Shown here piece by piece: positions 10,426 through 28,650 of a stretch of 64,000 bases of DNA. Position 1 is the first letter of the stretch, and every line of letters starts with the position of its first letter. The notes below the pieces were generated by a model. That model saw only the letters and a program-made list of their open reading frames with translations, made no database searches and was not told where the DNA came from. The DNA comes from Blastococcus sp. CT_GayMR19. Lineage in GTDB: Bacteria; Actinomycetota; Actinomycetes; Mycobacteriales; Geodermatophilaceae. The position numbers and the translations under genes are program-made. The stretch covers positions 248,001 through 312,000 of the forward strand of contig NZ_SPQL01000002.1 in NCBI RefSeq assembly GCF_004570385.1. The letters run 5' to 3'.

Positions 10426-10893
10426 TCAGCCGTCGATGTAGCGGTCGCGCTCGACGACGAACTGGCCGGTGGCGGTGTTGGCGTCGACGAACTCCGGCAG
10501 GAACGGGATCCGCACCGTCACGGTCACGCAGACGGAGAACTCCTCGCCCGGCGCCAACGTGGGTGTGAAGCCGCCCGCGTCCGCGCAGTCCACCCCGGCG
10601 GCCGCGTAGGCCACCCGCACGTCGCTGGCCGCCACCGACTGGTCCTCGACCGCGAGCTGCGCCGCCCGTGCCGCGCGGGCCAGACCCGTGGCGGGGTCGG
10701 GAGCCGTGCCGATCGCCCGGCCGGCCTCACGGGCCGCGGCCGTGGAGGCGAACACCCCGCGCTGCACGGCCGAGAAGCCGGCGAGGATGTAGATCAACGG
10801 CACGAAGACGACCAGGGCGATGAAGACGAACTCCACCAGCGCCGAGCCGCTCTCGTCGGCGAGCATGCCCAGCCGCCGGCGCAGCCGCCTCAC
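10426..10893 (-). CDS. TadE-like pilus assembly protein
   Basis: 155 residues, GTG start overlapping the previous gene by GTGA. A short basic N-terminus, ESGSALVEFVFIALVVFVPL as the pseudopilin-like cleavage/TM region (conserved Glu after the hydrophobic start), then an exported domain with two cysteines. TadE-type minor pseudopilins sit in the membrane and help Flp pilus assembly. Last gene of the cpaF-tadB-tadC-flp-tadE operon. Its 3' end has a degraded copy at 739-800. Confidence 0.85.
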   Translation of the reverse strand: MRRLRRRLGMLADESGSALVEFVFIALVVFVPLIYILAGFSAVQRGVFASTAAAREAGRAIGTAPDPATGLARAARAAQLAVEDQSVAASDVRVAYAAAGVDCADAGGFTPTLAPGEEFSVCVTVTVRIPFLPEFVDANTATGQFVVERDRYIDG

Positions 10894-11306
10894 GCGCCCT
10901 CCTTCACCGCGCGCCCGGTGACCTCCAGCGGCAGCAGGTTGCCCAGCACGGCCAGCAGCGAGGGCACCGACCCGGAGCAGCGCACCACCACCAGCGGGAG
11001 GCCCGTGCCGTCCACCTCCTCGGCCGACGTGCAGGCCAGCCCCCTGGCGGTCTGCGCCGTCGTCGCCCGCGCCACGACCTCGACGGTCCGGGCAGCCCCG
11101 GAGGAGGAGTCGACGTCGGCGTTGGCCGCGTACCGCGCGCCCGCCTGCGCGCTCGCCGTCACCACGTTGCGCACGTGCACGTACACCGCCACCTGCAGAA
11201 CCGCCAGCAGCAGCGTCACGATCAGGATCGAGACCAGCACGAAGTCGACGACGGCGCTGCCGCGCTCGCTGTCCTCACCCGACGCGAGGGGCCGCTCAGG
11301 GCGCAT
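10890..11306 (-). CDS. TadE/TadF-like pseudopilin
   Basis: 138 residues. ERGSAVVDFVLVSILIVTLL forms the pseudopilin-like membrane helix and is followed by a periplasmic-type domain with a pair of cysteines (ACTSAEE, VVRCSGS). It overlaps flp upstream by 11 bases and the next tadE by four, so the set is translationally coupled. The first 95 codons are duplicated almost perfectly at 24602-24897, where the copy is truncated. Confidence 0.85.
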   Translation of the reverse strand: MRPERPLASGEDSERGSAVVDFVLVSILIVTLLLAVLQVAVYVHVRNVVTASAQAGARYAANADVDSSSGAARTVEVVARATTAQTARGLACTSAEEVDGTGLPLVVVRCSGSVPSLLAVLGNLLPLEVTGRAVKEGA

Positions 11307-11502
11307 TCGTGACGGAGGCGAGGGCCGCGGTCACGGCGTCGAGGATCGCCGCCCGGAACGGGATGAGGATGGCCAGCACCAGAGCCGCCGTCATCACCGT
11401 GATCATCACCCAGCCCGGGACGTCGCCCCGCTCGGGATCCTCGCCCCGCACCCGGGCCGTCAGAGCGGCCAGCGCCGAGGTCACGAACGCGTATGCGCGC
11501 AT
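11296..11502 (-). CDS. Flp-type pilin or small Tad membrane protein
   Basis: 68 residues: a short N-terminus with RGEDPERGDVPGW, then one strongly hydrophobic helix (VMITVMTAALVLAILIPF) and a short tail. Size, position between tadC and tadE and the helix after a charged leader fit the small actinobacterial Flp-like subunit. A GGAAGGACGACG ribosome site precedes the ATG. An identical protein is encoded at 24887-25093. Confidence 0.7.
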   Translation of the reverse strand: MRAYAFVTSALAALTARVRGEDPERGDVPGWVMITVMTAALVLAILIPFRAAILDAVTAALASVTNAP

Positions 11503-11533
11503 CGTCGTCCTTCCTGTCGATCGCCGGCTGCGC

Positions 11534-12475
11534 TCATTGCGACAGCGAGACGATGCTGATCAACCCCGGGAACAGGGCGAAGAGAACGGTGACCGGGAGC
11601 ACCAGGAAGACGACCGGCACCATCATCCCGATCTCCTTCCGCCCGCCGGCCTCGAGCAGCCGGCGCTTGCCGGCCTCCCGGACGTCGGCCGCCTGGGCGC
11701 GCAGCACCTCGGCCAGCGGCGTGCCCCGCTCGATCGCGACGAGCAGCCCGTCGATGAACCGGGCCAGCGGGTCGAGCGACGTCCGGTCGGCCACCTGCTG
11801 CAGCGCGTCCACCAGCGGGGTCCCGGCGCGGGCACGGCCGAGAGCCGCCCCGAGCTCGCGGGCCAGCTCCCCGCCGGAGAGCCGGGTGACCCGGGCGATC
11901 GCAGCGGTCGGGCTCTCCCCCGCCGTCACCGCCAGCGCCAGCAACTCGGCCACGACGGGGAACTCGGCCAGCAGCAGCTCCTCGCGCTGCTGCACCTGCT
12001 GGGTCAGCCACCAGTCCCGGCCGAGGACGCCGCCGACGAGGCCGGCCAGGCACAGCAGGCCCCCGGACAGCACGTTGAGGCTGCCGGCCGCGATCGACCC
12101 GATCGTCGCGACCAACGCCCCTCCGGCCAGGCCGAGCCCGCCCCAGATCACCTGCTCGACGCGGAAGTCCTCGACGGTCGTGTCGGTGGCCAGCGCGTCC
12201 AGCCGCCGGCGCACCGCGGCCCGCCCGCCGAGCATCCGGTCGATCAGGCGGGCGCCGTCGCCGACGACCGGCCCGAAGACCCGGCGGACGGCGGTGAGCA
12301 GCCCGGCCTCGGTGGCGGTGCCCAGCAGCCGCGACGGCGGCGGGGTGTCGTGGACGTACGGGGCCAGCCGGTCGACCAGCCGCACCGACCGGAACGGCGG
12401 CGCGTACCGGAGCACCAGCACGAGCCCGAGAGCCACGCCGAGACCGAGGAGCATCCCGGTCAGCCCGGCGTTCAC
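11534..12475 (-). CDS. tadC: TadC-like type II secretion F-domain protein
   Basis: 313 residues, GTG start overlapping tadB (GTGA). A T2SS-F domain lies around residues 160-290 (LLLAEFPVVAELLALAVTAG, then a conserved helix set with DGLLVAIERGTPLAEVL), with hydrophobic helices before and at the C-terminus. TadB and TadC form the inner-membrane platform of the Tad pilus. The last 28 codons are duplicated at 25125-25213. Confidence 0.85.
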   Translation of the reverse strand: MNAGLTGMLLGLGVALGLVLVLRYAPPFRSVRLVDRLAPYVHDTPPPSRLLGTATEAGLLTAVRRVFGPVVGDGARLIDRMLGGRAAVRRRLDALATDTTVEDFRVEQVIWGGLGLAGGALVATIGSIAAGSLNVLSGGLLCLAGLVGGVLGRDWWLTQQVQQREELLLAEFPVVAELLALAVTAGESPTAAIARVTRLSGGELARELGAALGRARAGTPLVDALQQVADRTSLDPLARFIDGLLVAIERGTPLAEVLRAQAADVREAGKRRLLEAGGRKEIGMMVPVVFLVLPVTVLFALFPGLISIVSLSQ

Positions 12476-13335
12476 TGCAGCACCCGCACGTCCTGGGGCA
12501 GCCGCCCGATCCGCAGCATCAGCCGGTAGGCGACCACGCAGACGGCGCCGCCCCCGAGCAGGATCGCCGTTCCGAGCGGGGAGTCGTACGCGGCCAGCGT
12601 CGTCGACTGGGTCGCCAGCAGCAGGAGCACGGCCCAGGGCGCCGCCACGGCCAGCCGGGCCGCCGACACCACCCAGCCCTGGCGGGTCTCCAGCTCCGCA
12701 CGGGCCCGGGCGTCCTCGCGGAGGAACGTGGCCAGCGTGCGCAGCACGCGGCCGAGGTCGCTGCCGCCGACCTCGCGCGCCACCCGCAACGTCTCCACGA
12801 TGCGGTCACCCACCGGATCGGCAAGGTCGTCCTTCAGCCGGTCCAGGCAGGTGCTGAAACGACCGGTCGAGCGGTACTCCGCGCCGAACCGGGAGAACGC
12901 GGGCCGCAGCACCTCGGGGCCGCGCGTCGACAGTGCCGACAGGCCCTCGGGCAGCGAGAGCCCGGCCCGCACGGCCGACGCGAGATTGTCGACGACCTCC
13001 GGCCACACCTCGCGCAGATCGGCCTGCCGCCGACCGGCCAGCCGACGCACCTGCAGATAGGGCAGCGCGAACCCGAAGAGCCCGAACACCAGGCTGACCG
13101 TAACCGTGCTCGTCGTGAGCAGGACGACCACCGTCGCGACGAGGCCGAGGCCGACCTGCAGGGCCAGCAACTGGGCGCCGTTGATCCCGGTCAGACCCGC
13201 CGCGGACAGCGCCTGCTGCCGGCGCCCGAGCCGGCGCGGGCCGGTGCCTGGCTGCGGCGCCCGCGGGCCACTTCGCCAGATGAGCAGCAGGCCCACACCG
13301 AGGAGCAGCCCGAGCAGCGCTCCGGACTCGATCAC
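12472..13335 (-). CDS. tadB: TadB-like type II secretion F-domain protein
   Basis: 287 residues, GTG start. Two N-terminal membrane helices, then a T2SS-F domain (EVVDNLASAVRAGLSLPEGL, LRVAREVGGSDLGRVLRTLA) and two C-terminal helices. It lies 73 bases after cpaF and directly before tadC. Partner of TadC in the platform that the ATPase CpaF drives. Confidence 0.88.
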   Translation of the reverse strand: MIESGALLGLLLGVGLLLIWRSGPRAPQPGTGPRRLGRRQQALSAAGLTGINGAQLLALQVGLGLVATVVVLLTTSTVTVSLVFGLFGFALPYLQVRRLAGRRQADLREVWPEVVDNLASAVRAGLSLPEGLSALSTRGPEVLRPAFSRFGAEYRSTGRFSTCLDRLKDDLADPVGDRIVETLRVAREVGGSDLGRVLRTLATFLREDARARAELETRQGWVVSAARLAVAAPWAVLLLLATQSTTLAAYDSPLGTAILLGGGAVCVVAYRLMLRIGRLPQDVRVLQ

Positions 13336-13408: not shown

Positions 13409-14033
13409 TCACGTGAAGCGTCCCGGCCCGTCCCCGAGCAGGGTCGGGAGGTCGAGGCCGAGTGCGGCGAACCGGTCGGGGTGCGGGGGATAGCCGTCGG
13501 CGCGCACGAGGCGGCCGTCCCGGGTGGTGAAGACGTCGGCGGTCTCGATCACGCCGCCCTCGGCACGGCCCGGCAGGGCCACGATCTCGCGCACGCGCCG
13601 GTGGCCCGAGGCGTCGGTACCGACGTGCACGACGAGGTCAACGCTGGACGCCACGGTGGGGACGACGAACGCCGTCCCGATGTTCTCGCCGGCCAGCAGC
13701 GGCAGGGTGCACATCTTCACCACGGCCTCGCGGGCACTGTTGGCGTGCAGCGTGCACATGCCCGGCAGCCCGGAGTTCAGCGCGATGAGCAGGTCGAGGC
13801 ACTCCTCCTGCCGCACCTCGCCGACGATGATCCGGGAGGGCCGCATCCGCAGCGCCTCCTTGACCAGGCGGCGCAGCGGGATCTCGCCCGTCCCCTCGAG
13901 GTTGGCTTGGCGGGTCTGCATGGAGACGACGTCGGGAAGCGGTACCCGGAGTTCGAACACCTCCTCGCAGGTGATCACCCGCTCCCGGGCGGGGATGGCC
14001 GCGGTGAGGCAGTTGAGCAGCGTCGTCTTCCCT
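13409..14033 (-). pseudogene. cpaF: cpaF/tadA pilus ATPase, 3' part, separated by the inserted element
   Basis: The frame begins inside the Walker A loop (GKTTLLNCLTAAIPARE) and continues through the Asp box (VITCEEVFEL), the Walker B region (RPSRIIVGEVRQEECLDLL) and the His box (MCTLHANSA). There is no start or promoter of its own; the missing first half is at 23696-24312. The two parts (617 + 625 bases) add to 1242 bases, 413 codons plus stop, in frame once joined at GCCTG. Without excision the ATPase cannot be made, so the Tad pilus should be inactive. Confidence 0.92.
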
Positions 14034-14058
14034 GCCTGCGTACAAGCCGGTAGTTACC
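14034..14058. other. Attachment site at the left element end
   Basis: The core GCCTG is followed inside the element by CGTACAAGCC and then GGTAGT. That last hexamer is the inverse of ACTACC at the other end, so in the circular form the two would form inverted arms around the core, as serine integrases require. Confidence 0.7.
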
Positions 14059-14147
14059 GGGCACGTTTGGTAGCGCGGTCCGCATCCGTGGGCTAGGTCT
14101 CGAGATCAGCCGGGCCAAAGGGGTCCGCACCACATAAGGAGCCAGCC

Positions 14148-14633
14148 ATGACCGCCGCCAAGAAGACCACCGCCACCCCCGCCACCGTCGACGAGGTCCC
14201 TGCCGAGATGCTGCCCGACGCCTCCGCTGCTGCGGACGACGCCGAGGTCGCCGACGCCATGGAGTCTGCCGGCATCACCGTTGCCAAGGCGGCTCCGGCC
14301 GCGAAGAAGGCTCCGGCCACCAAGGCTCAGGCGAAGGCCACCCCGGCGAAGGCCGCGACCAAGGCTCCGGCGAAGAAGGCGGACGAGCCGACCGTCAGCG
14401 TGTGGGTCGGCCGCAAGATCGCCGAGATGGCCAAGGCCCAGAAGCGGGGCTCCCTTGGGGCCAAGTTCCGGGCGGTCACCCCCAGCAAGGCGGGCGACCA
14501 CACGGTCCGGCTCAACAAGGCCGAGAGCGAGGCGCTCGCCGCGCTGGCCACGGAGGTCGAGAACCAGGGCGGCATGATGGCCCTGTCGGGTCGCACCCTC
14601 CGCGCTCGCCTCGACGCCGCCTGGAACGCCTGA
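14148..14633 (+). CDS. Lysine/alanine-rich histone-H1-like protein
   Basis: 161 residues with a good ribosome site (AAGGAG, 7 bases before ATG). The first half is acidic (EVPAEMLPDASAAADDAEVA), then a basic low-complexity tract rich in AKK/PAK repeats (residues 50-82) like bacterial histone-H1-like tails. The C-terminal 75 residues look folded (TVSVWVGRKIAEMAKAQKRG). The basic tract suggests nucleic-acid binding. First rightward gene inside the left end; a strong hairpin follows the stop. Role in the element unknown. Confidence 0.7.
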   Translation: MTAAKKTTATPATVDEVPAEMLPDASAAADDAEVADAMESAGITVAKAAPAAKKAPATKAQAKATPAKAATKAPAKKADEPTVSVWVGRKIAEMAKAQKRGSLGAKFRAVTPSKAGDHTVRLNKAESEALAALATEVENQGGMMALSGRTLRARLDAAWNA

Positions 14634-14647
14634 GCTCCACTACACAA

Positions 14648-14678
14648 CCAGCCCCGCCGGGATCACCGGCGGGGCTGG
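14648..14678 (+). terminator. Strong hairpin terminator
   Basis: A perfect 13-base-pair stem (CCAGCCCCGCCGG with its complement) and a 5-base loop GATCA, starting 15 bases after the stop of the 14148-14633 gene. No T-run follows, which is common in high-GC actinobacteria. Confidence 0.8.
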
Positions 14679-14732
14679 CGTGCGTCGTGGGGTCACCAGG
14701 GCCCAGCAACGCGCTCGCCGTGAAGACGGTTG

Positions 14733-15869
14733 ATGGGACACGATGCCTCGGTGAAGCGAGACGCACAGGTTCTCCACAGCAAGGCCATCGCCTCGATGCG
14801 GGTAGCCACCGCGGCGTTCAACTCACCGGATGACGTCGGCCGGGTGACGCAGGTGCTCCTGGCCCTTCAGCACTCGTTCGAAATGCTGCTCAAGGCCGCC
14901 CTCGTGCAACAGCGAGTGCGGGTCTTCGACAAGGACTCGGGCCGGTCCATCGGGATGGACAAGTGCATCAACCAGGCGCAGAACAACACCGTCATCAAGC
15001 TGACCGACGACGAGGCGGGCACTCTCCGCACCATCGACGCGATGCGGGACGACGAGCAGCATTGGTTCGCCGAGGTGTCGGAGCAGATCCTCTACCTGCA
15101 CGCCCGCGCCGGGATCACCCTCTTCGACGAGTTGCTGGACCGTGTGTTCGGGCAGCGACTGGCCACCTATCTGCCCCTTCGGGTCCTCCCCCTCTCGACG
15201 GACCCTCCGCGCGACCTCCACCTCCTCCTCGACGAGGAGTACAGCGCCATCGCCGACCTACTCAAGCCGAGGCGCCGGATGACCGAGCCCGCGAAGGCCA
15301 GGATCCGCACTCTGCTCGCGATGGAGGCTCACGAGGAGCCGGAGACCCGCGTCTCCGACAAAGACGTCAAACGAGTCGTCAAGGGGATTCGGGCGGGCAA
15401 GACCCGAGCCGAGGTCTTCCCCCGGCTGGAGAACCTGGCCACGGACGTGACCGGTGATGGGCCCAACGTGTCGGTGCACTTCAACAAGAAGGGCGAGGGT
15501 GCTGCCGTGCACTTCGTCGCCGAGGACGCCGACGTCGAGTCGGCCGCGATCCGCGAGGTCGACCTCAACGCTCGCTTCTCCCGCACGAAGGCAGAGCTGG
15601 CCGACGCGCTCGGGGTCAAGCAGCACATCGCGACCGCGCTCAGGGACCACCTCGCCGTCGACCAGGACCCCCGTTGCTACCGGGACATCACGTACAACAA
15701 CTCCGTCCTCCGCAAGTACTCGGATCGGGCCTTCGCTCCGATGCGAGAGGTCATCAAGGCCGGCAACGCCGAGGCGGTGAGGTCGGCGCACAGTCCCAAC
15801 AAGGGCATGCGCCACGAGCGTTGCTCGATCGAGGGCTGCAAGGCCGGAGCGGACCCCACCCCGGCGTGA
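14733..15869 (+). CDS. DUF3644-like protein, possible defence cargo
   Basis: 378 residues from ATG 14733 (a TTG lies one codon before). The N-terminal 60 residues (LHSKAIASMRVATAAFNSPD, then LLALQHSFEMLLKAALVQ) resemble the start of DUF3644 proteins: a helical domain with an E-x-L-L-K-A motif. The middle is helical and the C-terminal third has a winged-helix-like stretch (RTKAELADALGVKQHIATAL) and a final Cys-x-x-x-x-Cys. It stands alone between the hairpin at 14648 and the capsid operon that converges on it. Position at the element end is typical of accessory genes such as anti-phage functions; that role is inference. Confidence 0.6.
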   Translation: MGHDASVKRDAQVLHSKAIASMRVATAAFNSPDDVGRVTQVLLALQHSFEMLLKAALVQQRVRVFDKDSGRSIGMDKCINQAQNNTVIKLTDDEAGTLRTIDAMRDDEQHWFAEVSEQILYLHARAGITLFDELLDRVFGQRLATYLPLRVLPLSTDPPRDLHLLLDEEYSAIADLLKPRRRMTEPAKARIRTLLAMEAHEEPETRVSDKDVKRVVKGIRAGKTRAEVFPRLENLATDVTGDGPNVSVHFNKKGEGAAVHFVAEDADVESAAIREVDLNARFSRTKAELADALGVKQHIATALRDHLAVDQDPRCYRDITYNNSVLRKYSDRAFAPMREVIKAGNAEAVRSAHSPNKGMRHERCSIEGCKAGADPTPA

Positions 15870-16001
15870 CTCGGCGGCGGGCTTGGCCCTGCTCCAAGGT
15901 CACCGCCCGCAGGGCTGGAGAGGGGCGCTCGCTGCACCTCGAAGTGGGCACCGCACGCGAGCTCCTGCCGGGCCTGGAGTCCCGACAGGGGCGTAGCTCG
16001 G

Positions 16002-16853
16002 TCAGACCGTGGTCGTGATCTTGACCAGGGCGGAGGGCTGCGGGTACCCGAAGCCGACGCGCATGACCGCCTTGACGGCGATCCGGTCCGAGGTGAAGAA
16101 CACCGACTTGTCGGTCTCCATGGTCACGTCCTTGCGGATGACCACGACGACCCGCTCCCTCGGGATGCCCCAGATGGTGCCAGCGGGCACCGCCGAGCTG
16201 CGCAGCAGCGGCACGCCGCCGATGAGCCGACGGGTCGGCTGCGTCGGGTCGGCTCCGAGGAGCGGCCGGTTGGACCCGGTGGACTCCTTGAGCAGCGCCA
16301 GGGTCAGCGCGTCCGCCGGGTTGGCGACGAAGCTCGTGATGGCAGCGCCGACGCCCTCGGCGAGCGACTGCGCCTCGGCGAAGACGTCGAGCGAGTCGAA
16401 CGCCGTGACGGTCAGGCCCTGCACGTCGTCGGCGTTGGCGTTGACGGCCAGCGAGCCGAGGCCCTTCTGGGCGTTCGGGTTGGCGAGGTTGCCGAAGAAC
16501 GCCGCGTCCACCTTGCGGGCGATGTCGCGGGCCAGCCCGTTGCCGATCACGTCGGCGGCGTCGGGACCGGAGTCCTCGGACAGCTCACGGGTGATGGGCA
16601 CGACGCCCATGACCTTGGTCGGGGTGACGGTCACCTCGTCGAAGGTCATGTCAGAGAGGACGACCTCCTCGCCCTCCGCGACCCAGTCGGCCGACGGCTC
16701 GGAGCCGGGCACCGGGATGCGGTAGGAGTGCGAGTCGGTCCGGACGACGGTGGCGACCTGAGTGGCCAGCGCCTCCGCCTCGAAGGGGTCGAGCAGGTAG
16801 GTGTTGATCTCGTCCGGGGTCAGGATGGACGAGCCGGTGACAGTGGTGGTCAT
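16002..16853 (-). CDS. Phage major capsid protein, HK97 fold
   Basis: 283 residues with AAGGAG upstream of ATG. Typical HK97-capsid pattern: an extended N-arm region (SYRIPVPGSEPSADWVAEGE), then VTVTPTKVMGVVPITRELSE, the spine-helix stretch (DAADVIGNGLARDIARKVDA) with AFFGN, and a C-terminal P-domain strand (DRIAVKAVMRVGFGYPQP). Length is at the short end of the family and there is no long N-terminal delta domain, consistent with a separate scaffold gene upstream. Last gene of the leftward operon. Confidence 0.9.
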   Translation of the reverse strand: MTTTVTGSSILTPDEINTYLLDPFEAEALATQVATVVRTDSHSYRIPVPGSEPSADWVAEGEEVVLSDMTFDEVTVTPTKVMGVVPITRELSEDSGPDAADVIGNGLARDIARKVDAAFFGNLANPNAQKGLGSLAVNANADDVQGLTVTAFDSLDVFAEAQSLAEGVGAAITSFVANPADALTLALLKESTGSNRPLLGADPTQPTRRLIGGVPLLRSSAVPAGTIWGIPRERVVVVIRKDVTMETDKSVFFTSDRIAVKAVMRVGFGYPQPSALVKITTTV

Positions 16854-16929
16854 GGCAGGGCTCCTTCAGGAGGGCATCGGTTGGGATGGCGTCGCGGGCC
16901 CTGCCTCGCGTGCCGGTGCCCCCCTGGGG

Positions 16930-16988
16930 CTCGTCGCCAGGTCCGGTGGGAGGTGCCCCCTGGGCAACCGGCCGGACCTGGCGACGAG
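16930..16988. repeat. Perfect 17-bp inverted repeat between scaffold and capsid genes
   Basis: CTCGTCGCCAGGTCCGG at 16930-16946 and its exact complement at 16972-16988, with a 25-base spacer that itself can fold (TGCCC-CCT-GGGCA). It sits between the scaffold stop and the capsid start. It could attenuate or stabilise the capsid message, or be a protein-binding site. Confidence 0.85.
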
Positions 16989-17000
16989 ACGATAGCTCGG

Positions 17001-17510
17001 CTACGCGTCCCTGAGGATCTGCTGGAAGCTCCGCACGCCTCTGACGGGCTCGCCGCGCCCGCCCTGGCCCATGTCGCGGGGCACCCGCACCCGGGCCTGG
17101 CCCCAGTGCGGGTGGTCGGCCAGCACCTTCGTGACGGCGTCGGCCACCTTGGCGGAGTCCACGGTGCCGTCGTCGGCCAGCAGGTCCTTCAGCTCCGCTC
17201 CGGCGACCCACAGGTCGGAGGCGGACAGCAGCCTCTCCCCCACCAGGGCCTCGGCCTCACGGCGCTGGTAGGTGGCCACGGTCCCGACCAGCGCGTCCCG
17301 CTCGGCCTCGACCTCGCGCCGCTTCTCCCGCTGCTTGAAGTTCTCCGCCTGGAGGGCGGCCACGCCCGTCGACTCCTGCCCCTCTCCCGTCCCCTCAGGC
17401 GGGGTCGTGCCGTCGGCTGCGGTCGTGTCGGTCTGGCTGGCGTCGGTGATCTCAGTGCCCTCCTGGGTGGCGTCGGTGGTGCTGGTCGCGGTGGTGTCGG
17501 TCGTGGTCAT
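17001..17510 (-). CDS. Phage scaffold-like protein
   Basis: 169 residues; AGGAGG precedes the ATG at ideal distance. A Thr/Asp/Glu-rich low-complexity N-terminus (about 50 residues) leads to a charged coiled-coil stretch (LQAENFKQREKRREVEAERD) and a helical C-terminus. This composition and the position just before the capsid gene are characteristic of scaffolding proteins in small siphovirus-type capsid modules. No protease motif is seen. Confidence 0.75.
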   Translation of the reverse strand: MTTTDTTATSTTDATQEGTEITDASQTDTTAADGTTPPEGTGEGQESTGVAALQAENFKQREKRREVEAERDALVGTVATYQRREAEALVGERLLSASDLWVAGAELKDLLADDGTVDSAKVADAVTKVLADHPHWGQARVRVPRDMGQGGRGEPVRGVRSFQQILRDA

Positions 17511-17651
17511 GCGGGTCCTCCTGGGTCAGTTCGAGTGGATCGGTGAGGTCGGTCATCTCAGTGGGGCGTGATCTCGGAAGCCGTAAGGAATGGATTCGCC
17601 AGAACGGCGCGGGGGCCTTCACGACCCGGGGGGAGGGGTCACCCCCACCCC

Positions 17652-17987
17652 TCAGCTGCGGGGATGCTCACCACCTACACCACGGTCGGCGAACATCTGG
17701 TTGAGGTTGCAGGACCTGCACTGGCCCTTCAGGTTGTCGCGGACGTAGGCGCCACCACGGGCGAACGACACGATGTGTCCGGCCTCGGTGGCAGGAGCTC
17801 CGCAGTCCCGGCAGGTCGGCTCCTCGGCGAGGACCTGTGCACGGAGCTGCTTGTCCGCACGCGACCTCGTCGCGCCTGCTCGTGCGCTGCCCTGCCACGC
17901 TCGCGTGTGCGCGTCGCAGTACTTGCGCGCTCGCACCCGCTCCTCGCATTCCGGCTTGCCGCACTTCTTCGGTGCGCGCGGGCTCAC
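17652..17987 (-). CDS. HNH endonuclease
   Basis: 111 residues, GTG start overlapping the upstream stop (GTGA). Two zinc pairs flank the HNH core: CGKPECEER and KYCDAH at the N-terminus, then CRDCGAPATEAGHIVSFARG and LKGQCRSCNLNQ. In phages such small HNH proteins usually lie near terminase genes and assist packaging; here no terminase follows, so it may serve the terminase of a helper phage or act alone. Confidence 0.85.
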   Translation of the reverse strand: MSPRAPKKCGKPECEERVRARKYCDAHTRAWQGSARAGATRSRADKQLRAQVLAEEPTCRDCGAPATEAGHIVSFARGGAYVRDNLKGQCRSCNLNQMFADRGVGGEHPRS

Positions 17988-18313
17988 GCCGCCAGCCAGG
18001 TGCGACGGCGGATGCCCGGCGACAGGTAGTCCACGAGGCAGGTTGCGTCCTCGTCCACCGTGATGCCGGCAGTCGCGAGGAGGGTCCGCTCGGTGGGGGT
18101 GGTGGGGCGCTCGAACGGCCAGCCCCGGACGTCGGCCAGGGACCGGTCAGCCACCAGCCGGGTGTCCTCGGCGTCCTGGAGCGAGCAGCCGCCCAAGGTG
18201 TGGTGTCGGAACACCAGGCCAGCCGGGTGGGGCACCAACTGCTCCCCGCCGCACTCGGGGCAGACGGCTGCGGCGAGGGGGTCGCTGAAGACCGGGGTCA
18301 GGTTGTCGGGCAT
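17984..18313 (-). CDS. Small zinc-binding hypothetical phage protein
   Basis: 109 residues with AAGGAGCTCCG before the ATG. The N-terminal part has CPECGGEQLVPHP and FRHHTLGGC, a probable zinc ribbon of CxxC plus later Cys/His; the C-terminal half contains a helix-rich segment (PTTPTERTLLATAGI). Similar small proteins occur in actinophage and satellite operons beside HNH genes. Function unknown. Confidence 0.6.
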   Translation of the reverse strand: MPDNLTPVFSDPLAAAVCPECGGEQLVPHPAGLVFRHHTLGGCSLQDAEDTRLVADRSLADVRGWPFERPTTPTERTLLATAGITVDEDATCLVDYLSPGIRRRTWLAA

Positions 18314-18424
18314 CGGAGCTCCTTGTTGGGTCGGCGGGTGGGCCGGTCTGTGGGTTGAGGGAGAAGGGGTCGCAACCCCGCCCCCGGACTTTCTGTAGCG
18401 GGCAGCCCTCCGGGCCCGCCCCGC

Positions 18425-18453
18425 CCGCGCCCCCCTGAAGGGAGGGGGCGCGG
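18425..18453 (-). terminator. GC-rich hairpin between replication and capsid genes
   Basis: CCGCGCCCCC at 18425-18434 pairs with GGGGGCGCGG at 18444-18453 around a 9-base loop. It lies in the 200-base gap after the primase-helicase gene and could separate the replication and structural transcripts. Confidence 0.6.
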
Positions 18454-18514
18454 GGCGTGGTTGGAGCGACCAAGCCGGGGCGTGGTCGGGGCGTGGTAGG
18501 GCGTGGGGGCGTGG
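18453..18514. repeat. Five GGGCGTGG iteron-like repeats
   Basis: The octamer GGGCGTGG occurs at 18453, 18478, 18489, 18499 and 18507, all on the same strand and ending directly at the stop codon of the primase-helicase gene. Spacings are 25, 11, 10 and 8 bases. Iterated sites beside a replication gene are typical of plasmid and satellite origins; no AT-rich melting region is visible, so the origin role is a proposal. Confidence 0.55.
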
Positions 18515-20620
18515 TCAGTCACCGTCGTCCCCGAACTCCACGACGTACGGACGGACCAGCTTGTGAAGCAGAGCCTGGCCCTTCGTGGAACGGGACACCC
18601 AGCCGTCCGCCACCAGGGCGTTGAGGGCCGCGTCGATGTCGTCGTTCTTGCCGGTGACTCCCTTACGCACCAGCGTGGCGCTCGCCCCGTCGTGGTCAGG
18701 CCCGAGCTCACCGAGGAACTCGGCGACCCGCTCCTTCATCCGCTCGGCCTTCTCGTCGGGGGCGGTGACAGGAGCCGGAGCCAGCACCGAGAACTGCAGC
18801 CAGTCGCCCGTCGAGTCCACGACGATGCGCGCGGCCTCCTGGGTGCGGTCGGCACCCGCCGCGCCCGACTTGCCACGGACGAAGCCCGGCCGGTCCTTGG
18901 CGACCCGCATCACGAGCTCTCCCCGGAGACCACGCCCTACCGGGGAGCGCACGTCCAGGGCGTAGGCCGCGCCCGTCAGGACGGACATCTTGGCCTGACC
19001 GCCGATGGCGAACCGGCCACGGCTCTCGGCGTTCTTGGTGACGTGGTCGATCTGCACCACCGCCGCGCCGGTCCGGTCGGCCACGAACCGGGGCAGCTTG
19101 CGCGCCCACTCGGTTGCGGAGGCGTTGGGATCCTTGACGTCCATGCCCAGCGCGTCCATCGACTCGGACACCCCGTCGATCACCACCAGGGAGTACGGGT
19201 GGCGGTCCAGCGTGGCCAGGAACGCTGCGTGCTCGGCCTTGCCCACGTGCGGGTCGCTGGCGGGCTGGAGGTAGACGAAGCGCTCAGCCGCAGCCGCCAT
19301 GTCCGCGCCCAGCACACGCAGCCGCTCGACGATGCTCGCCGGGTCCGACTCGAAGTCGAGGTACAGCACCGCCTCGCCCGCCCGGAGCCGCTGCACGCAC
19401 TCGTACTGCGCCACCATCGACTTGCCGGACTCCGACTCGCCGTGGATCGAGTGGGTGAGGCCCGGGTACAGCAGGGCCACGCCGTCGTCCCGCAGCAGCA
19501 GCTCGGGCTCCACTGGCTTGTGGGTGCCGTCGATGAAGCCGCTGAGGTCGAGCCCCGTCCACGTGGAGGGCGTGCCCGGGTCGCTGAAGTCGTCGGCCGC
19601 GCTCGGCCGGTCCCCACAGCAGCCCCGGTCGGCCTCGGGGGTGATCGTGGCGCTGGCGATGCCCACAGCCCCCGTGAGGCCCCTCTCCCATTCCCTCTGC
19701 GCGTCGTCCACGCCACCCGGCCGCTCGGGTGCCACGGCCTTGACGAAGGCGTTCTCCAGCATCTCGAGGGCCTGGCCGGCCCCGTCGTGCCCCTGCTCCC
19801 CCATGCGGATGAGGTTCAGCTGGGCCTTGCTGGCGACCTCGTGACGACCGCCCGGCTCGCCCAGGTTCCCGAGCACCCGGTCGAGCGACCGCTGCATGGC
19901 ACGGCAGGGCTCCCCGCCGGGCAGCTCAGCGATCCACGCGTGGGCCTTGCTGGCGGTGACGCTGGCCTTGGCGTCCACGTCATCCGCGGAGCCGTTGTCC
20001 AGCTCGGCGACCCACGCCTCGGGCAGTGCAGGCAGCTCGTCGATGTGCGGCGGGCCACCCATCGGTAGGCCGACATCGTCGGTCCAGCCGTAGACCATGC
20101 CCTCGGGGTGCACGGACGGGCCCACGACGGCGTAGCGGTGGCCGTGGTGCACGATCTCGACCCCAGCACCGAGCTGGCCCTTCCACTTCCGACCGGCCGG
20201 AACCCGGAACCACAGGATGCCGGAGCCGTCCTCGCGAGCCGACGACCGGAAGGTGGCGGGCAGCTCGCCCAGCCGGGCCTGCGCCTCGGCGATGGTCTCC
20301 GCCCCGGCGTCCTTGTAGGAGTCGACGTCGATGCCGAGCACGGTCTCCCCCGCCCGGACAGCGATGTTGTGGGCGCCACCGGCGGACCACCGAGCGGCGT
20401 CCTCCGCCGTGACCCAGCGGCCGGAGTAGCCGGTCCACCCGGTGGGCGGCGGGGCCTTCTCCTTGTGCGGGAGCGGGATCGGCGACCACCCGGCGTCGAT
20501 GTACTCCTGGGCCGCGTGCGCGTACGGGGTATCCTGAGCCTCGGTCTTGTCCTGCCTGGCAGCGGTTCGGACCTCAGACGGGCTCTCCTTGTGGGGGCCC
20601 GTTCGTTCGTTGTCAGCCAT
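18515..20620 (-). CDS. Bifunctional primase-polymerase / RecA-like helicase
   Basis: 701 residues from the ATG at 20618-20620, which overlaps the previous gene by eight bases. Residues 35-190 form a prim-pol domain (YIDAGWSPIPLPHKEKAP, then VLGIDVDSY with the catalytic aspartates, GILWFRVP, HHGHRYAVVGPSVHP). Around residue 390 a RecA-like ATPase begins (IHGESESGKSMVA Walker A, YLDFESD, LVVIDGVSESMD Walker B, VVQIDHVTKN). The end is a winged-helix-like tail. Such proteins replicate plasmids, prophages and satellites. Longer frames toward 20797 are not needed. Confidence 0.88.
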   Translation of the reverse strand: MADNERTGPHKESPSEVRTAARQDKTEAQDTPYAHAAQEYIDAGWSPIPLPHKEKAPPPTGWTGYSGRWVTAEDAARWSAGGAHNIAVRAGETVLGIDVDSYKDAGAETIAEAQARLGELPATFRSSAREDGSGILWFRVPAGRKWKGQLGAGVEIVHHGHRYAVVGPSVHPEGMVYGWTDDVGLPMGGPPHIDELPALPEAWVAELDNGSADDVDAKASVTASKAHAWIAELPGGEPCRAMQRSLDRVLGNLGEPGGRHEVASKAQLNLIRMGEQGHDGAGQALEMLENAFVKAVAPERPGGVDDAQREWERGLTGAVGIASATITPEADRGCCGDRPSAADDFSDPGTPSTWTGLDLSGFIDGTHKPVEPELLLRDDGVALLYPGLTHSIHGESESGKSMVAQYECVQRLRAGEAVLYLDFESDPASIVERLRVLGADMAAAAERFVYLQPASDPHVGKAEHAAFLATLDRHPYSLVVIDGVSESMDALGMDVKDPNASATEWARKLPRFVADRTGAAVVQIDHVTKNAESRGRFAIGGQAKMSVLTGAAYALDVRSPVGRGLRGELVMRVAKDRPGFVRGKSGAAGADRTQEAARIVVDSTGDWLQFSVLAPAPVTAPDEKAERMKERVAEFLGELGPDHDGASATLVRKGVTGKNDDIDAALNALVADGWVSRSTKGQALLHKLVRPYVVEFGDDGD

Positions 20621-21188
20621 CACTCGGCTCCCCGGTGAGGTCCCCGAGCACGACGAGGTCGTGGTAGCTCTCGCACGTGCCGTTGGCGCCGAACGGGTGC
20701 ATCCGTCCCAGGGCTGCCCGAGCCTCCGCCTCCGTGGGGTGCAGCAGGACGGTGATGCCGCCACAGCCCCGCACGGTGGCGTACCGGCCCTCGCCACGGA
20801 TCCACAGCGCCTCGGGCCAGGTGCGCCGGGCGAGGTCGGGGTAGGTCGTGGGCATGCAAGTCGGGGCCGGTCCCGGGCCTGCCATCAGGTAGACGACCCG
20901 GCCGTCGTTGCGCTCCATGCGGGCAGCCCGGGGAGGCTCCTCCCACAGCGACAGCGCATCGACGTCCGGCACCACCGCGATGGCGCCCGGCCGACGGATG
21001 CAGCAGTAGTTGCCGCACAGAACCAGCTCGTTCCTGGCCGACTGCCCAACGATCACGATGGTGACGTTGTTGTGGAGCGCCAGGTCGGCCGCGAGCCGGT
21101 AGACACCAGCCCTGGTCGCAGCGGCGAGGTTGCCGGGCAGGACGGCCACAGAGGTTGTGGCGCACTTGGCGTCGCCGATGCCGCTCAT
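20613..21188 (-). CDS. Hypothetical element protein, 191 aa
   Basis: Starts at an ATG overlapping the upstream stop (ATGA) and ends eight bases into the primase-helicase gene, so it belongs to the same operon. It has alternating strands and helices (NNVTIVIVGQSARNELVLCG) and several cysteines (NYCCIRRPG, GCGGITVLLHP). The N-terminal half might be a small nucleotide-binding fold. No family recognised. Confidence 0.6.
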   Translation of the reverse strand: MSGIGDAKCATTSVAVLPGNLAAATRAGVYRLAADLALHNNVTIVIVGQSARNELVLCGNYCCIRRPGAIAVVPDVDALSLWEEPPRAARMERNDGRVVYLMAGPGPAPTCMPTTYPDLARRTWPEALWIRGEGRYATVRGCGGITVLLHPTEAEARAALGRMHPFGANGTCESYHDLVVLGDLTGEPSDG

Positions 21189-21406
21189 CGGGCGGTGCCC
21201 GAGAGCAGCAGAACGGCCAGCCGCTTGCGCTGGGCTGTGGTGAGGGGCGGGGCAGCGTCGAGCGCCTTCTGGATGGCGCGCTCGCAGTTGGCTGCGGTCA
21301 GCTCCCGCTTAGCGGCGGCGAGCTGGTCGGGCGTTCCGCAGCGGGCAGCGACACCGACTCGGCTGACTGCATTACGGACGGGGTCGACCGTCGACGGCTG
21401 GGACAA
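21185..21406 (-). CDS. Small helical phage-type protein, 73 aa
   Basis: TTG start supported by GGAGG six bases upstream. The product ends in IQKALDAAPPLTTAQRKRLA and then LLL, a pattern often seen in small proteins of actinophage and integrated elements. First gene of the leftward operon, so a regulatory or replication-accessory role is possible. Function unknown. Confidence 0.6.
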   Translation of the reverse strand: MSQPSTVDPVRNAVSRVGVAARCGTPDQLAAAKRELTAANCERAIQKALDAAPPLTTAQRKRLAVLLLSGTAR

Positions 21407-21711
21407 GGGGAGCCTCCAGAACAGTGAAGTCCTGGTACGGCTCCTCCCTGCTGACCAATCCGGTTCTCCGGTCAGTCAGGGTGGTGTACCCCCACGGCCA
21501 AGTCGAAGTCCGACCCCGTGGTGCCGAGCGCGTCCCTGCTACGTTCCCGCCGTGGTCGTGCCGAGGTCCGGATCAGACCTCCCCAAAGCGCTACTTCCGC
21601 ATTGCGATGAACGATAGCTCACCCGGACATCGGGTGGCCGTGGAGTGGCCCCTGACCAGGCCCCTTAGCGGCCCACCTAGGGACATCCCCCTGATCTACT
21701 CCATCCGGGGG

Positions 21712-22152
21712 ATGTGGGTCCAGGCCGACCGGAGTGACGATGCGCAGGTGAGTTCCCTCCGCTGGACAGGGCTTCGGCTGGCAGTCGTGGCGATTGCCTG
21801 CTGGGCAGTTGTCGTGGTGGCGATCATCACGACCGAGCCTGCGGAAGGGGTCCCCATTGGGGCCGGTTTCTTCTACATCGTTGCGGTGCCGCTCTCGGTG
21901 GCCGCGTCGCTAGTCCTGCTCAGCTCTCTACGCACAACGGCGGCGGGGGCCGGGTGGCCCTCCAGACGGAAGGCGAAGGCCACGCTCTCCGTGGCCGCGG
22001 CCTTGGCCGTCGGAACGGTGGTCATCCTGCCGGTTCTCTTCGTGGGCGGGGCGACGGACTCGATCCCAGCGAACATCCTCGATGTGCTGCTGTTCTCGGG
22101 TCTAGGTGCGTTCGTGATCTCCACGCTCTTGTTCGGATTGATGCGTCCCTGA
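21712..22152 (+). CDS. Small integral membrane protein
   Basis: About 146 residues with four hydrophobic segments (LAVVAIACWAVVVVAIIT, FFYIVAVPLSVAASLVLL, AALAVGTVVILPVLFV, VLLFSGLGAFVISTLLFG). The frame is open from 21424; the start is uncertain (ATG at 21607 or 21712, GTG at 21748). It converges on the integrase gene and shares its hairpin. As the only membrane protein of the element it could be a superinfection-exclusion or toxin-like factor, which is speculative. Confidence 0.5.
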   Translation: MWVQADRSDDAQVSSLRWTGLRLAVVAIACWAVVVVAIITTEPAEGVPIGAGFFYIVAVPLSVAASLVLLSSLRTTAAGAGWPSRRKAKATLSVAAALAVGTVVILPVLFVGGATDSIPANILDVLLFSGLGAFVISTLLFGLMRP

Positions 22153-22166
22153 AGCCGCCTTCAGGG
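22147..22166. terminator. Bidirectional hairpin between converging genes
   Basis: CCCTGAAG and CTTCAGGG around a CCGC loop; the stem includes the stop of the membrane protein gene and ends two bases before the integrase stop. Confidence 0.7.
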
Positions 22167-22167
22167 G

Positions 22168-23667
22168 CTACACCCCTTGGAAGTCCGCCGCCTGCTGGTC
22201 CGCGTCGATCGGGCCCAGATCCTCGGGCACCTTCCAGTCGAACGTCAGCCGGGCGAGCACCTGCGCGGGTGTGCGTCGGCCGGTGCCGCCGCGCCGCACC
22301 CAGATGCGCTCCATGGCGTCGTCCAGCACCGCCCGCTGCTGCTCGACGTCCTCCCCCGCGCTCGCCCAGTCGTCTTCGAACCACCCGGCGTCCTCGTACC
22401 GGAGCGACACGATCGGCGCCTCCTCGCGCTTGGCGTCCCGCAGGTCAAGGAGGGTGCTCTGCTGCTCTTGAAGCTCGCGCCGCTGCTCGCGGTCGGTAAC
22501 CTGACGGATGAGCTGGTCGAGCTCGTCCAGCCGGTGCTCGATCTCGGGCAGGAGGGCCGCGCCTCCCTCGTAGACCTTCTCGACGCGCGTCCACCGCACC
22601 CGCTCGCCCTTCTGCCGCAGGAACTCTTCAACCACGAGGGGCTCGAAGTTCGAGATCGACTGCGAGCACTCGGGGCAGGTGTAGCCCGGCCGTCCGTTCA
22701 CCGTGCACCGGTGCATCCGCACCCCGTCGGCCCCATGCTCGCCGCACCACAGCAGGCCCGACAGGAGCGCCGAGGTCTTCGACCGCAGTGCACGCGGCTT
22801 GGACTGCGCGCTGTCGTTGTCGTCTAGCTTCGCCACCAGGGCGCGCCAGTCCGCCACCGGCAGGATCGCCACCGACTCGACCACCACGGGCAGGCCGTCG
22901 CTGTCGCGCAGGACGTTGGTGCCGCGCTCCTTGGTCGTATTGCCGGGGTTGAAGGGAGTCATGCCGGCGAGGATCGGGTGCCGCAGGATGCGCTCCACGG
23001 AGTTGTAGGCCCAGCCGCCGCGCCCAGTCGGCGTCGGCGCGCCGACCTCGTCCAGCCACTGGACGACGCTGTAGATGGAGTTGCCGCGCCGCACCCGCTC
23101 GGCCATGCCCCGCACGTAGTCGATGCGGTCAGGGTTGTGAGCGAGCACCAGCCCTGGACCGTCGGGGTTGCGCACGCTCTGCCAGCCATAGGGCACCGTG
23201 CCGCCGACCACGCGCCCCGCAGTCAGCAGGTGGGTCCGGGCAGCCGCGACGCGAGCGCTGATGGCGTCGGCCTCGTACTCGGCGAAACTGGCGAGAACGT
23301 TGGCAACGAACCGACCGTCGCCGGTCGTCAGGTCCAGCGAGTTCTCCACTGCGACCAGCCCCGCGCCTCGCCCGCGCAGAGCCTCGTTCGCCAGGTGGAA
23401 GTCGAGGACACGGCGGGCCAGCCGGTCCAGCTTCCAGATGATGACGGCCTCGAACTGAAGCGGCGAGGCAAGCAGCTCGCGCCACCCGGCACGGTCCACG
23501 GGCTTGTTGTGGCTGGCCGAGACGCCGTCGTCGGTGAAGGTGCCGACCACCTGCCACCCCCGGGCAGCGGCGTACTGCTCCGCTGCTTCTCGCTGGCGGT
23601 CGATGCTGACTGAGGCCTCTTGGGCGACGCTGATGCGGGCGTAGATCACTGCACGGCGGGTGGGCAT
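22168..23667 (-). CDS. int: Large serine recombinase (integrase)
   Basis: 499 residues from the ATG at 23665-23667. The resolvase domain opens with VIYARISVAQEASVSIDRQR, with Ser13 as the catalytic serine, and includes WKLDRLARR. A recombinase domain follows (PYGWQSV, SVERILRHPILAG), then a zinc ribbon (LLWCGEHGADGVRMHRC, PGYTCPEC) and a coiled coil (EIEHRLDELDQLIRQVTDRE) near residues 375-430. This is the layout of phage-type integrases. The start is only 29 bases from the right attachment core, as is usual. No recombination directionality factor is recognised. Confidence 0.95.
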   Translation of the reverse strand: MPTRRAVIYARISVAQEASVSIDRQREAAEQYAAARGWQVVGTFTDDGVSASHNKPVDRAGWRELLASPLQFEAVIIWKLDRLARRVLDFHLANEALRGRGAGLVAVENSLDLTTGDGRFVANVLASFAEYEADAISARVAAARTHLLTAGRVVGGTVPYGWQSVRNPDGPGLVLAHNPDRIDYVRGMAERVRRGNSIYSVVQWLDEVGAPTPTGRGGWAYNSVERILRHPILAGMTPFNPGNTTKERGTNVLRDSDGLPVVVESVAILPVADWRALVAKLDDNDSAQSKPRALRSKTSALLSGLLWCGEHGADGVRMHRCTVNGRPGYTCPECSQSISNFEPLVVEEFLRQKGERVRWTRVEKVYEGGAALLPEIEHRLDELDQLIRQVTDREQRRELQEQQSTLLDLRDAKREEAPIVSLRYEDAGWFEDDWASAGEDVEQQRAVLDDAMERIWVRRGGTGRRTPAQVLARLTFDWKVPEDLGPIDADQQAADFQGV

Positions 23668-23685
23668 GGACAACTAACGTAGCTG

Positions 23686-23700
23686 TTGACTACCCGCCTG
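23686..23700. other. Attachment site at the right element end
   Basis: ACTACC at 23689-23694 followed by one base and the core GCCTG at 23696-23700, after which the cpaF frame continues. The hexamer mirrors GGTAGT at 14049-14054. Confidence 0.7.
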
Positions 23701-24312
23701 GGTGCCGCCGGAGACCAGGATGTTGAGCCCGGAGGCGACGGCGGCCTCCAGGAAGCGGGCCGCCTGCGCGGTGAGGGTGCCGAGCGCGACCAGTTCGTCG
23801 AGGTGGTGGGCCTGCAGCACGAACTTCCGGATGTTGATCGCCATATGGCGGCGGGTGATGTCGGGGATGACGACGTGCAGCCGGGAGCCGTCGGGCATGG
23901 TCGCGTCGACGAACGGTGTGCTCATGTCGATCCGGCGTCCCGACGTGCGGAGCATCCGCTCGACCAGCTCGGCCAGCTCGCCCGGGCCCAGGATCGTCGT
24001 GGTGAGCTCGCTGCGGCCGCGCCGGGCGACGAACACCCGCCCGGGCTCGTTGACCCAGATCTCCTCGACGTCGGGGTCGTCGAGGTAGCGCTGCAGCGGC
24101 CCGAACCCGGCCACCCGGTCCAGCACGTCACGGACGATCGACTCGGCGTCCCCGATCGGCGGCAGCGCCGAGTTCAGCGACCGTTCGGAGTACTCGGCGA
24201 TGACGTCGCGCACGAGCACGCGGACCGGGCCCGGATCGGTGAAGGGGTCGAGGCCGCGACGCCGGATGAGCTCACGGACCTCGCCGTCCACGACGTCCAG
24301 AGCGGTCGGCAC
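23696..24312 (-). pseudogene. cpaF: cpaF/tadA pilus ATPase, 5' part, cut at Walker A
   Basis: From the ATG at 24310-24312 the product begins MPTALDVVDGEVRELIRRRG and carries the CpaF N-terminal domain (FGPLQRYLDDPDVEEIWVNE) and the start of the ATPase core up to ILVSGGTQAG, the first half of the Walker A loop. Into the element the frame runs only six more codons (SQQLR, stop). As it stands it would give a 212-residue protein without an ATP site. Excision of 14034-23695 rejoins it with 13409-14033. Confidence 0.92.
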
Positions 24313-24495
24313 GGCACCCCTTTGAGCTGGCGATCAGTCGGCAAATCGCCCGGACTGTAAGGGAACGAAACAGTCCGTGGGCCGCGCAGCGGTCCTTCTG
24401 TGGACAACCCGACGTCGTGCGGGGCCACTACCACCCACCCGGGTGAACGCGCGCGCATCAATTCCAATCCCGGGCGCCGGGCCACGCTCCAGCCC

Positions 24496-24545
24496 GGTGC
24501 GGTGCGGTGCGGTGCGGTGCGGTGCGGTGCGGTGCGGTGCGGTGC
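24496..24545. repeat. Ten tandem GGTGC pentamers
   Basis: GGTGC is repeated ten times without error upstream of cpaF and next to the tad duplication. Such a short perfect array is prone to slippage. On the minus strand it would extend the truncated tadE copy with TAPHR repeats. Confidence 0.95.
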
Positions 24546-24601
24546 GGAAGCCTGACGGGCTGCGACAACCCACCTCACGCGAGCTGGTCTCTCTCCGGTG
24601 A

Positions 24602-24897
24602 TTCATCCCCTCGGCTGACGTGCACGCCAGGCCCCTGGCGGTCTGCGCCGTCGTCGCCCGCGCCACGACCTCGACGGTCCGGGCAGCCCCGGAGGAGGAG
24701 TCGACGTCGGCGTTGGCCGCGTACCGCGCGCCCGCCTGCGCGCTCGCCGTCACCACGTTGCGCACGTGCACGTACACCGCCACCTGCAGAACCGCCAGCA
24801 GCAGCGTCACGATCAGGATCGAGACCAGCACGAAGTCGACGACGGCGCTGCCGCGCTCGCTGTCCTCACCCGACGCGAGGGGCCGCTCAGGGCGCAT
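24602..24897 (-). pseudogene. Truncated second copy of the tadE/F-like pseudopilin
   Basis: The first about 95 residues equal those of the gene at 10890-11306, including ERGSAVVDFVLVSILIVTLL. After LACTSAE the sequence diverges and the open frame runs on to 24334 through unrelated DNA and the GGTGC array. The exported domain with its second cysteine is lost, so a working pseudopilin is unlikely. Confidence 0.85.
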
Positions 24898-25093
24898 TCG
24901 TGACGGAGGCGAGGGCCGCGGTCACGGCGTCGAGGATCGCCGCCCGGAACGGGATGAGGATGGCCAGCACCAGAGCCGCCGTCATCACCGTGATCATCAC
25001 CCAGCCCGGGACGTCGCCCCGCTCGGGATCCTCGCCCCGCACCCGGGCCGTCAGAGCGGCCAGCGCCGAGGTCACGAAGGCGTATGCGCGCAT
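24887..25093 (-). CDS. Second copy of the Flp-like small pilin
   Basis: 68 residues with the same protein sequence as the gene at 11296-11502. The DNA has at least one silent change (GCG to GCC at codon 5), and the GGAAGGACGACG ribosome site is kept. The gene is therefore intact and could add a second source of the subunit, provided it is transcribed; no promoter is obvious because the upstream tadC is only a fragment. Confidence 0.75.
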   Translation of the reverse strand: MRAYAFVTSALAALTARVRGEDPERGDVPGWVMITVMTAALVLAILIPFRAAILDAVTAALASVTNAP

Positions 25094-25124
25094 CGTCGTC
25101 CTTCCAGTCGATCGCCGGCTGCGC

Positions 25125-25213
25125 TCATCGCGACAGCGAGACGATGCTGATCAACCCCAGGAACAGGGCGAAGAGAACGGTGACCGGGAGCACCAGGAAG
25201 ACGACCGGCACCA
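25125..25213 (-). pseudogene. C-terminal fragment of tadC
   Basis: Reads VPVVFLVLPVTVLFALFLGL and on to the stop, matching the last 28 residues of the TadC at 11534-12475 with small changes (for example Pro to Leu, final Gln to Arg). The upstream part of tadC is absent. Confidence 0.85.
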
Positions 25214-28530: not shown

Positions 28531-28650
28531 CTGGAAGGTGCTCCTCGATTGGCTCGGACTGGTCCCTAGACAAGACCCATCCCTGCTGGTCAAGAGCACT
28601 TTTCGGTTGATCAACACCCGGTCACGCTGCTCTGCCGTGAAGGCCCCGGG

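Follow-up and report, generated by a model that had tools for sequence, protein, structure and literature searches.

A capsid-encoding, satellite-like element in the Walker A codons of cpaF, an insertion hub in the Geodermatophilaceae

Phage-inducible chromosomal islands (PICIs) are known in two layouts. Classical PICIs have no capsid gene of their own and use the capsid of a helper, and capsid-forming PICIs encode their own major capsid protein, scaffold, terminase and portal. The 64,000-nucleotide stretch analysed here (the window; Blastococcus sp. CT_GayMR19, family Geodermatophilaceae, contig NZ_SPQL01000002.1, positions 248,001 to 312,000) holds a 9,662-base element, at 14034–23695, that interrupts cpaF, the gene of the Tad pilus ATPase, at its Walker A codons. 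The element resembles capsid-forming PICIs in being small and integrated and in encoding its own major capsid protein, a scaffold-like protein, a primase-type gene and a candidate defence cargo, but it has no clear terminase or portal and carries a serine recombinase. From classical PICIs it differs in having its own major capsid protein (16002–16853). Its layout lies between the two classes, and it is filed in neither. It is also similar to the phages of Mycolicibacterium aichiense (Alyssa1, WillG and others), which are about 11 kb long and carry the same capsid lineage at 33–34% identity. Alyssa1 has a serine integrase too, but differs in its annotated terminase, head-to-tail adaptor and tape measure genes.

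The choice of target has parallels as well, among them comM, which we take to be the magnesium-chelatase gene. In the main text of their paper, Croucher and colleagues argue that elements break competence genes to escape deletion by transformation, a reason proposed for those in comM, comYC and comFA (PMC4774983). The elements reported there in comM, comYC, comFA and radC are like the present one in being site-specific and in splitting a gene with a known or, for cpaF, a putative link to competence; the cpaF insertions differ in that their target is the motor of a Tad/Flp pilus and in that at least six sites, four groups of large serine recombinases (LSRs) and tyrosine integrases meet in one gene. 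Neither 'tad' nor 'cpaF' occurs in the main text of that paper. Durrant and colleagues report, again in the main text, that competence genes are enriched among LSR targets and that the magnesium-chelatase gene class is a leading one (PMC10083194). Those targets and cpaF have in common that distantly related LSRs converge on one gene, but 'pilus', 'tad' and 'ATPase' are missing from the main text, and the supplement may list cpaF. The open-access literature searched, taken without supplements, contained no report of insertions into cpaF or into other tad or pilus genes. As far as these searches show, cpaF adds a new target to a type of conflict already known.

Both parts of the split gene lie on the minus strand. 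The 5' half (23696–24312; 617 bases, or 205 codons plus 2 bases) ends in ...GGTQ, and the 3' half (13409–14033; 625 bases) contributes one joining base followed by GKTTLLN. Joined, they give 1,242 bases, or 413 codons plus a stop, that read GGTQAGKTT across the join. A preliminary description of this DNA had reported the split and its arithmetic, which recomputation confirmed; its statement that exact excision would restore cpaF also stands, the frame being intact across the join and both halves, when checked, free of internal stops. PF00437 matches both halves in a profile search of the host genome, and their DNA is 89% (5' half) and 88% (3' half) identical to the intact cpaF of a member of the same genus (L015). 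The split is genuine because two halves of one orthologue flank the element; the five bases common to the junctions, taken alone, could be chance. An intact cpaF elsewhere in the host, for which the preliminary description had allowed, was not found: there is no second copy, only paralogues of 33–41% identity. The comparison with related strains that it proposed revealed the unbroken site in relatives with an intact cpaF, mostly as GGCACCCAGGCNGGNAAGACG or close variants.

The junctions have in common an imperfect 11-bp core, ACGCAGGCAGG at the left (3') junction (14031–14041, minus strand) and ACCCAGGCGGG at the right (5') junction (23693–23703, minus strand). With such a shared core, the crossover is ambiguous by about 10 bases, an ambiguity that leaves the protein unaffected. 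As in LSR integrative elements, a recombinase with resolvase and recombinase domains adjoins one attachment site, joining restores the flanking gene, and the empty site is present in relatives. The three nearest relatives of the recombinase that were found, in genome G042 (83% identical), an Intrasporangiaceae metagenome-assembled genome (MAG; 69%) and Nocardioides sp. zg-DK7169 (68%), are all inserted in the cpaF P-loop too, so this site is used in hosts of different families. The view of the P-loop as a widely present target holds to that extent, but its DNA is not unusually conserved, ranking at the 49th percentile of 36-nt windows within cpaF across 27 intact genes, and the idea that the P-loop is targeted for exceptional DNA conservation is not supported. 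Read by eye, AC and GG are the dinucleotides retained at both junctions of four P-loop insertions; the central GC fits as the retained dinucleotide only with a later change in the Nocardioides copy. Loci L007 and L008 have the recombinase gene at the opposite end relative to cpaF when compared with the other P-loop insertions. It appears from the sequences that the recombinase gene is flipped there and the insertion itself is not. Inverted integration through a palindromic core was considered and rejected, since all four insertions, compared by eye, have similar element arms at the 3' junction.

The window insertion is one of many. Full-length cpaF was searched in all 112 genomes of the host family, with detail taken from 24 genomes and fetched loci, and counts were made for the 96 genomes with a completeness of 90% or more and a contamination of 5% or less (good genomes; 16 poorer ones were dropped). 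Counted by eye among the matches listed, cpaF is unbroken in 61, broken in 27 and undetermined in 8 (G027, G038, G060, G070, G072, G073, G074 and G090); G103 was scored as unbroken despite an additional partial copy (residues 3–251). The broken genes are those of G000, G010, G016, G019, G021, G022, G024, G030, G032, G039, G040, G042, G044, G047, G050, G051, G053, G055, G056, G062, G076, G079, G084, G101, G104, G107 and G108. For 19 of the 27, pieces from both sides of a break share a contig and are separated by inserts of about 7 to 60 kb; no split cpaF without an element, which would have told against the preliminary description, was noticed among these 19. cpaF is an insertion hub in the host family. 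The break count is claimed for this family only, as natural length variants of cpaF occur across the class, where a survey matched 299 of 394 genomes with partial matches, for example in G444 and G506, among the matches listed.

The breaks fall at no fewer than six positions (CpaF numbering): near 86 in G016, G024, G062 and G084; near 150 in G010, G019, G021, G022, G024, G030, G044, G051, G055 and G108; at 206 in G000, G042 and G084, the last with its recombinase frame broken in two; near 211 in G030, G047, G050, G079, G104 and G107; near 234 in G039, G053, G056, G076 and G101; and near 288–298 in G021, G032, G040 and G056. Single cpaF genes hold two insertions in G030, G056 and G024, and several breaks in G021 and G084. 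At locus L095 (G051), the longer 5' half is directly preceded by a second 5' fragment of cpaF (residues 3–86), a hint that insertions followed one another.

The recombinases adjoining these breaks comprise four LSR groups and tyrosine integrases, and the LSRs sort by site. The enzymes at 206 (window, G042, L007 and L008) are 64–83% identical to one another, those at 211 (G030, G047, G050, G104 and G107) 62–75%, and those at 234 (G053, G056, G076 and G101) 52–78%; between groups, identity is 22–28% for 206 against 211 or 234 and 40–45% for 211 against 234. The second-insertion LSR of G030 sits at the 211 site and shares 78% identity with the G107 enzyme from that site; the LSR of G062 near 86 shares 39% identity with one of the 211 enzymes. 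The profile search used found no LSR at the breaks of G039 or G079. Near 150, the two cpaF fragments overlap by several codons, as expected from the core of a tyrosine integrase. In G044, an integrase of this kind (PF00589) lies directly against the 3' half of cpaF at this break, G108 and G030 have a tyrosine-integrase motif at the matching position (motif only), and another tyrosine integrase adjoins the break near 86 in G024. Cargo differs among the open reading frames (ORFs) scanned: the G107 element carries a gene like that of the small terminase (TerS) and a helicase, that of G056 a capsid protein, that of G050 a methyltransferase and a repressor with no capsid match, and that of G053 a helicase-primase. 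The recombinases at 206, 211 and 234 thus form three sets, each faithful to its site and with attachment sites that can be read.

Control genes do not share this pattern. tadB gives a single near full-length match in all 86 good genomes with a match, with none broken, and in 93 of 93 over all genomes; one match (G012) contains a stop. glgC, a non-competence gene of similar length, gives a single near full-length match in 94 of the 96 good genomes and has no clear insertion; its two exceptions, G017 (adjacent pieces, frameshift-like) and G090 (one-sided), were scored as broken in the Fisher test. The comM domain PF01078 is split in up to 4 of 96 genomes: in G007 with the two sides 83 kb from each other on a single contig, in G043 and G032 on several contigs, and in G056 one-sidedly, a frameshift-like case in G086 being left out of the count. 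The comEC domain PF03772 is split in up to 4 of 94, on one contig in G086 and G105, on two in G040 and one-sidedly in G008. An LSR adjoins the comEC split of G105 (L091). One-sided Fisher tests of cpaF (27 of 88) give P values of 1e-9 against tadB, 3e-8 against glgC (2 of 96 broken) and about 1e-6 against comM and comEC; with the 19 two-sided cases only, these become 3e-7, 7e-6 and about 1e-4. They are indicative only because the genomes share ancestry. cpaF paralogues (32–43% identity) in 24 genomes are single long matches, G104 excepted. What began as a single odd insertion is thus part of a quantified hub that exceeds the comM-like magnesium-chelatase gene in the host family.

Downstream, 6 of the 27 good genomes whose cpaF is broken yielded no tadB, compared with 0 of the 61 with an unbroken one; its loss therefore follows some insertions. 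In the other 21 it is retained. Stops occur inside the cpaF pieces of G010, G016 and G051; the stop of G000 falls beyond the junction, and the other listed broken pieces have no internal stop. Missing tadB genes and stops are signs of decay, while the mostly stop-free pieces and the retention of tadB are signs of recency or upkeep.

A reason for the targeting of cpaF is suggested by Micrococcus luteus, in which, according to the main text of the report, transformation is abolished when any ORF in the two tad clusters other than tadB is deleted, and loss of tadB cuts it more than 100-fold (PMC4322843). By analogy, CpaF would power a Tad/Flp pilus for DNA uptake in the host family. Breaking cpaF would then block homologous recombination with imported empty-site DNA, and hence deletion of the element. 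The element's serine recombinase would recombine attP with attB in the Walker A codons, a chemistry expected from knowledge of the LSR family for an anatomy read directly at the junctions; insertion would split cpaF, and exact excision would restore it. Once mobile, the element would replicate through its own primase-helicase and build its own capsid, and a helper would supply terminase, portal and tail, since no clear genes for these were recognised in the element. That a satellite-like element sits in the cpaF hub with disruption of a competence pilus as the likeliest selective reason is a proposition to which we give an even chance. The broader proposal, that the host family is transformable via its Tad/Flp pilus and that unrelated elements (satellites, larger LSR elements and tyrosine-integrase elements) converged independently on cpaF, blocking transformation and their own deletion, is tentative and falls a little short of even. 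It predicts, testably, that actinobacteria of this family take up DNA through the Tad pilus; if true, the hub would document an arms race in these genomes, with about 3 in 10 lineages shut off at present. The comEC domain is present in 107 and the comM domain in 110 of the 112 family genomes, a near-universal distribution that is by itself no proof of transformability.

Several observations weigh against disruption of a competence pilus as the reason. The putative role of CpaF in a DNA-uptake pilus is drawn solely from the M. luteus analogy, and searches found no transformation, excision or virion data for the host and no experiments on the host family. tadB is never broken, though its deletion in M. 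luteus cuts transformation so strongly, and therefore the notion that any competence gene suffices as a target fails; comM and comEC are likewise broken far less often than cpaF. The other 8 of the 27 broken cpaF genes are one-sided, on different contigs or rearranged, and the draft genome G104 has one cpaF paralogue in pieces on two contigs and another with two stops. Finally, neutral use of a dispensable gene could account for the hub. On that account, which we consider rather unlikely, cpaF is a safe harbour, a conserved gene that most hosts have and can do without, and varied integrases settled there without benefit from the break. The clear tracking of cpaF site by recombinase lineage agrees with it, as do break sites in somewhat conserved DNA (mean conservation percentile 67, P 0.06), but conservation within cpaF explains little of site choice. 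Nor do the two control genes compared act as harbours: glgC, like cpaF in length and conservation and presumably dispensable, is without clear insertion in 96 genomes, and tadB, from the same gene row, is intact throughout.

Prophages act as switches in comK-like systems, and the preliminary description had suggested active lysogeny, with the element as a switch for the Tad pilus. Excision in response to particular conditions would then turn on the pilus. The exact restoration of the reading frame, the open halves and the uninterrupted tadB- and tadC-like genes of the window permit this, as does tadB in the 21 genomes that keep it; a reversible switch nevertheless finds no support beyond this anatomy and is improbable, given that tadB is missing from six broken-cpaF genomes, that several cpaF genes hold two different insertions that one excision would not restore, and that no excisionase was recognised among the scanned ORFs of the window element. 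Pili are common phage receptors, and loss of the Tad pilus could instead remove the receptor of helper or competing phages. Such superinfection exclusion would suit an element that also bears the candidate defence gene PDC-S19, but a helper-dependent satellite would presumably not profit from excluding its helper, and searches yielded no evidence on helper phages or other phages using this pilus; the proposal, also made earlier, did not gain ground and has little probability. Least probable is that the element is a dead remnant, part of a prophage that decayed and became fixed in a pseudogene. Clear terminase, portal and tail genes were indeed not found, but those genes that were recognised appear to have their full length, a relative of similar layout occupies the same site in another genus, and the best 24 viral contigs of the capsid lineage are all 4.2–13.5 kb long (some may be fragments), 10 of them showing no portal or large terminase by tblastn.

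The gene content of the element identifies it as an integrated, capsid-encoding, satellite-like element. On the minus strand it encodes the 499-aa LSR (22168–23667), with Resolvase and Recombinase domains and a zinc ribbon below cut-off; a 701-aa primase-polymerase (Prim-Pol) fused to an AAA domain (18515–20620); a 111-aa HNH endonuclease (17652–17987); a 169-aa head scaffolding-like protein (17001–17510; phrog_4708, E 4e-7; 54% identical in L013); and a 283-aa HK97-type major capsid protein recognised by profile matches. Three further minus-strand proteins have no family match: one of 109 aa (17984–18313) with a 60% identical homologue in L013, one of 191 aa (20613–21188) with homologues in L013 and L010, and one of 73 aa (21185–21406) with homologues in L013 and L009. 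On the plus strand are a DUF3644 protein (PF12358; 14751–15869) that matches the PADLOC candidate defence family PDC-S19 at E 2.8e-151, a 161-aa protein without family match (14148–14633) and a predicted 172-aa protein (21634–22152) whose DUF4229 match, obtained with a longer frame, is below cut-off. Among the element ORFs scanned no portal, tail or clear terminase gene was recognised; the sole terminase signal is a weak match of the HNH ORF to the small-terminase profile phrog_4581 (2.3e-5), which probably arises via the HNH part. The element is therefore satellite-like and not a whole prophage, for which terminase, portal and tail genes would be expected. A tRNA scan of the window found none.

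The closest relative found is the sister element of G042, from another genus of the same family, which has a similar layout at the same site. Its recombinase is 83%, its capsid protein 61–63% and its scaffold-like protein 54% identical to those of the window, and it has a related but divergent primase and a TerS gene. No other terminase and no portal gene was found in it, and the HNH and PDC-S19 genes of the window have no match there. The elements of the Intrasporangiaceae MAG and Nocardioides sp. zg-DK7169 encode capsid proteins of another family, phrog_3990. Among the 112 family genomes, window-type recombinases occur only in G000 and G042 at E 1e-100 or better, and at E 1e-120 no further carriers appeared among 397 genomes of the order; the P-loop recombinase lineage is rare but site-faithful. 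L009, with an LSR of 52–53% identity and a 127-bp terminal repeat, was considered as a free cpaF element and rejected, as it has no cpaF match and, by eye, no core upstream of the recombinase. The window capsid lineage, found also in the 11-kb Mycolicibacterium phages, is present at 58 loci in viral contigs. Among the best 24 of these, 14 have a portal-like gene, 13 of those with a large-terminase match too; of the 10 with neither by tblastn, 7 match the small terminase of G042. This points to a recurrent small element type with its own capsid and no recognised portal or large terminase.

The host tad-type gene row runs on the minus strand from cpaF through two T2SSF-domain genes and an ORF at the flp position to a TadE-like gene. 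The tadB-like (12472–13335) and tadC-like (11534–12475) genes, both uninterrupted, are named by position, as is the small ORF at the flp pilin position (11296–11502), which has no Pfam match; the TadE-like protein (10890–11306) matches PF07811. A 605-bp duplication at 98.8% identity (11018–11622 and 24609–25213) spans the end of the tadC-like gene, the flp-position ORF and the start of the TadE-like gene, with its second copy just upstream of cpaF and a tandem pentamer array (about 24495–24547) beside that copy. A DDE transposase gene (27155–28573) lies upstream of the row. Several kilobases past the tad genes, a 93-bp cpaF fragment (2924–3016, minus strand; codons about 263–294, 88% identity) spans the part of the gene in which the 288 break site lies. 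Outside the host, MT836307 and MT836248, 12-kb records from human faeces that are labelled 'Bacteriophage sp.', lack annotation and may be host DNA, contain near full-length CpaF relatives (71% and 63%, respectively).

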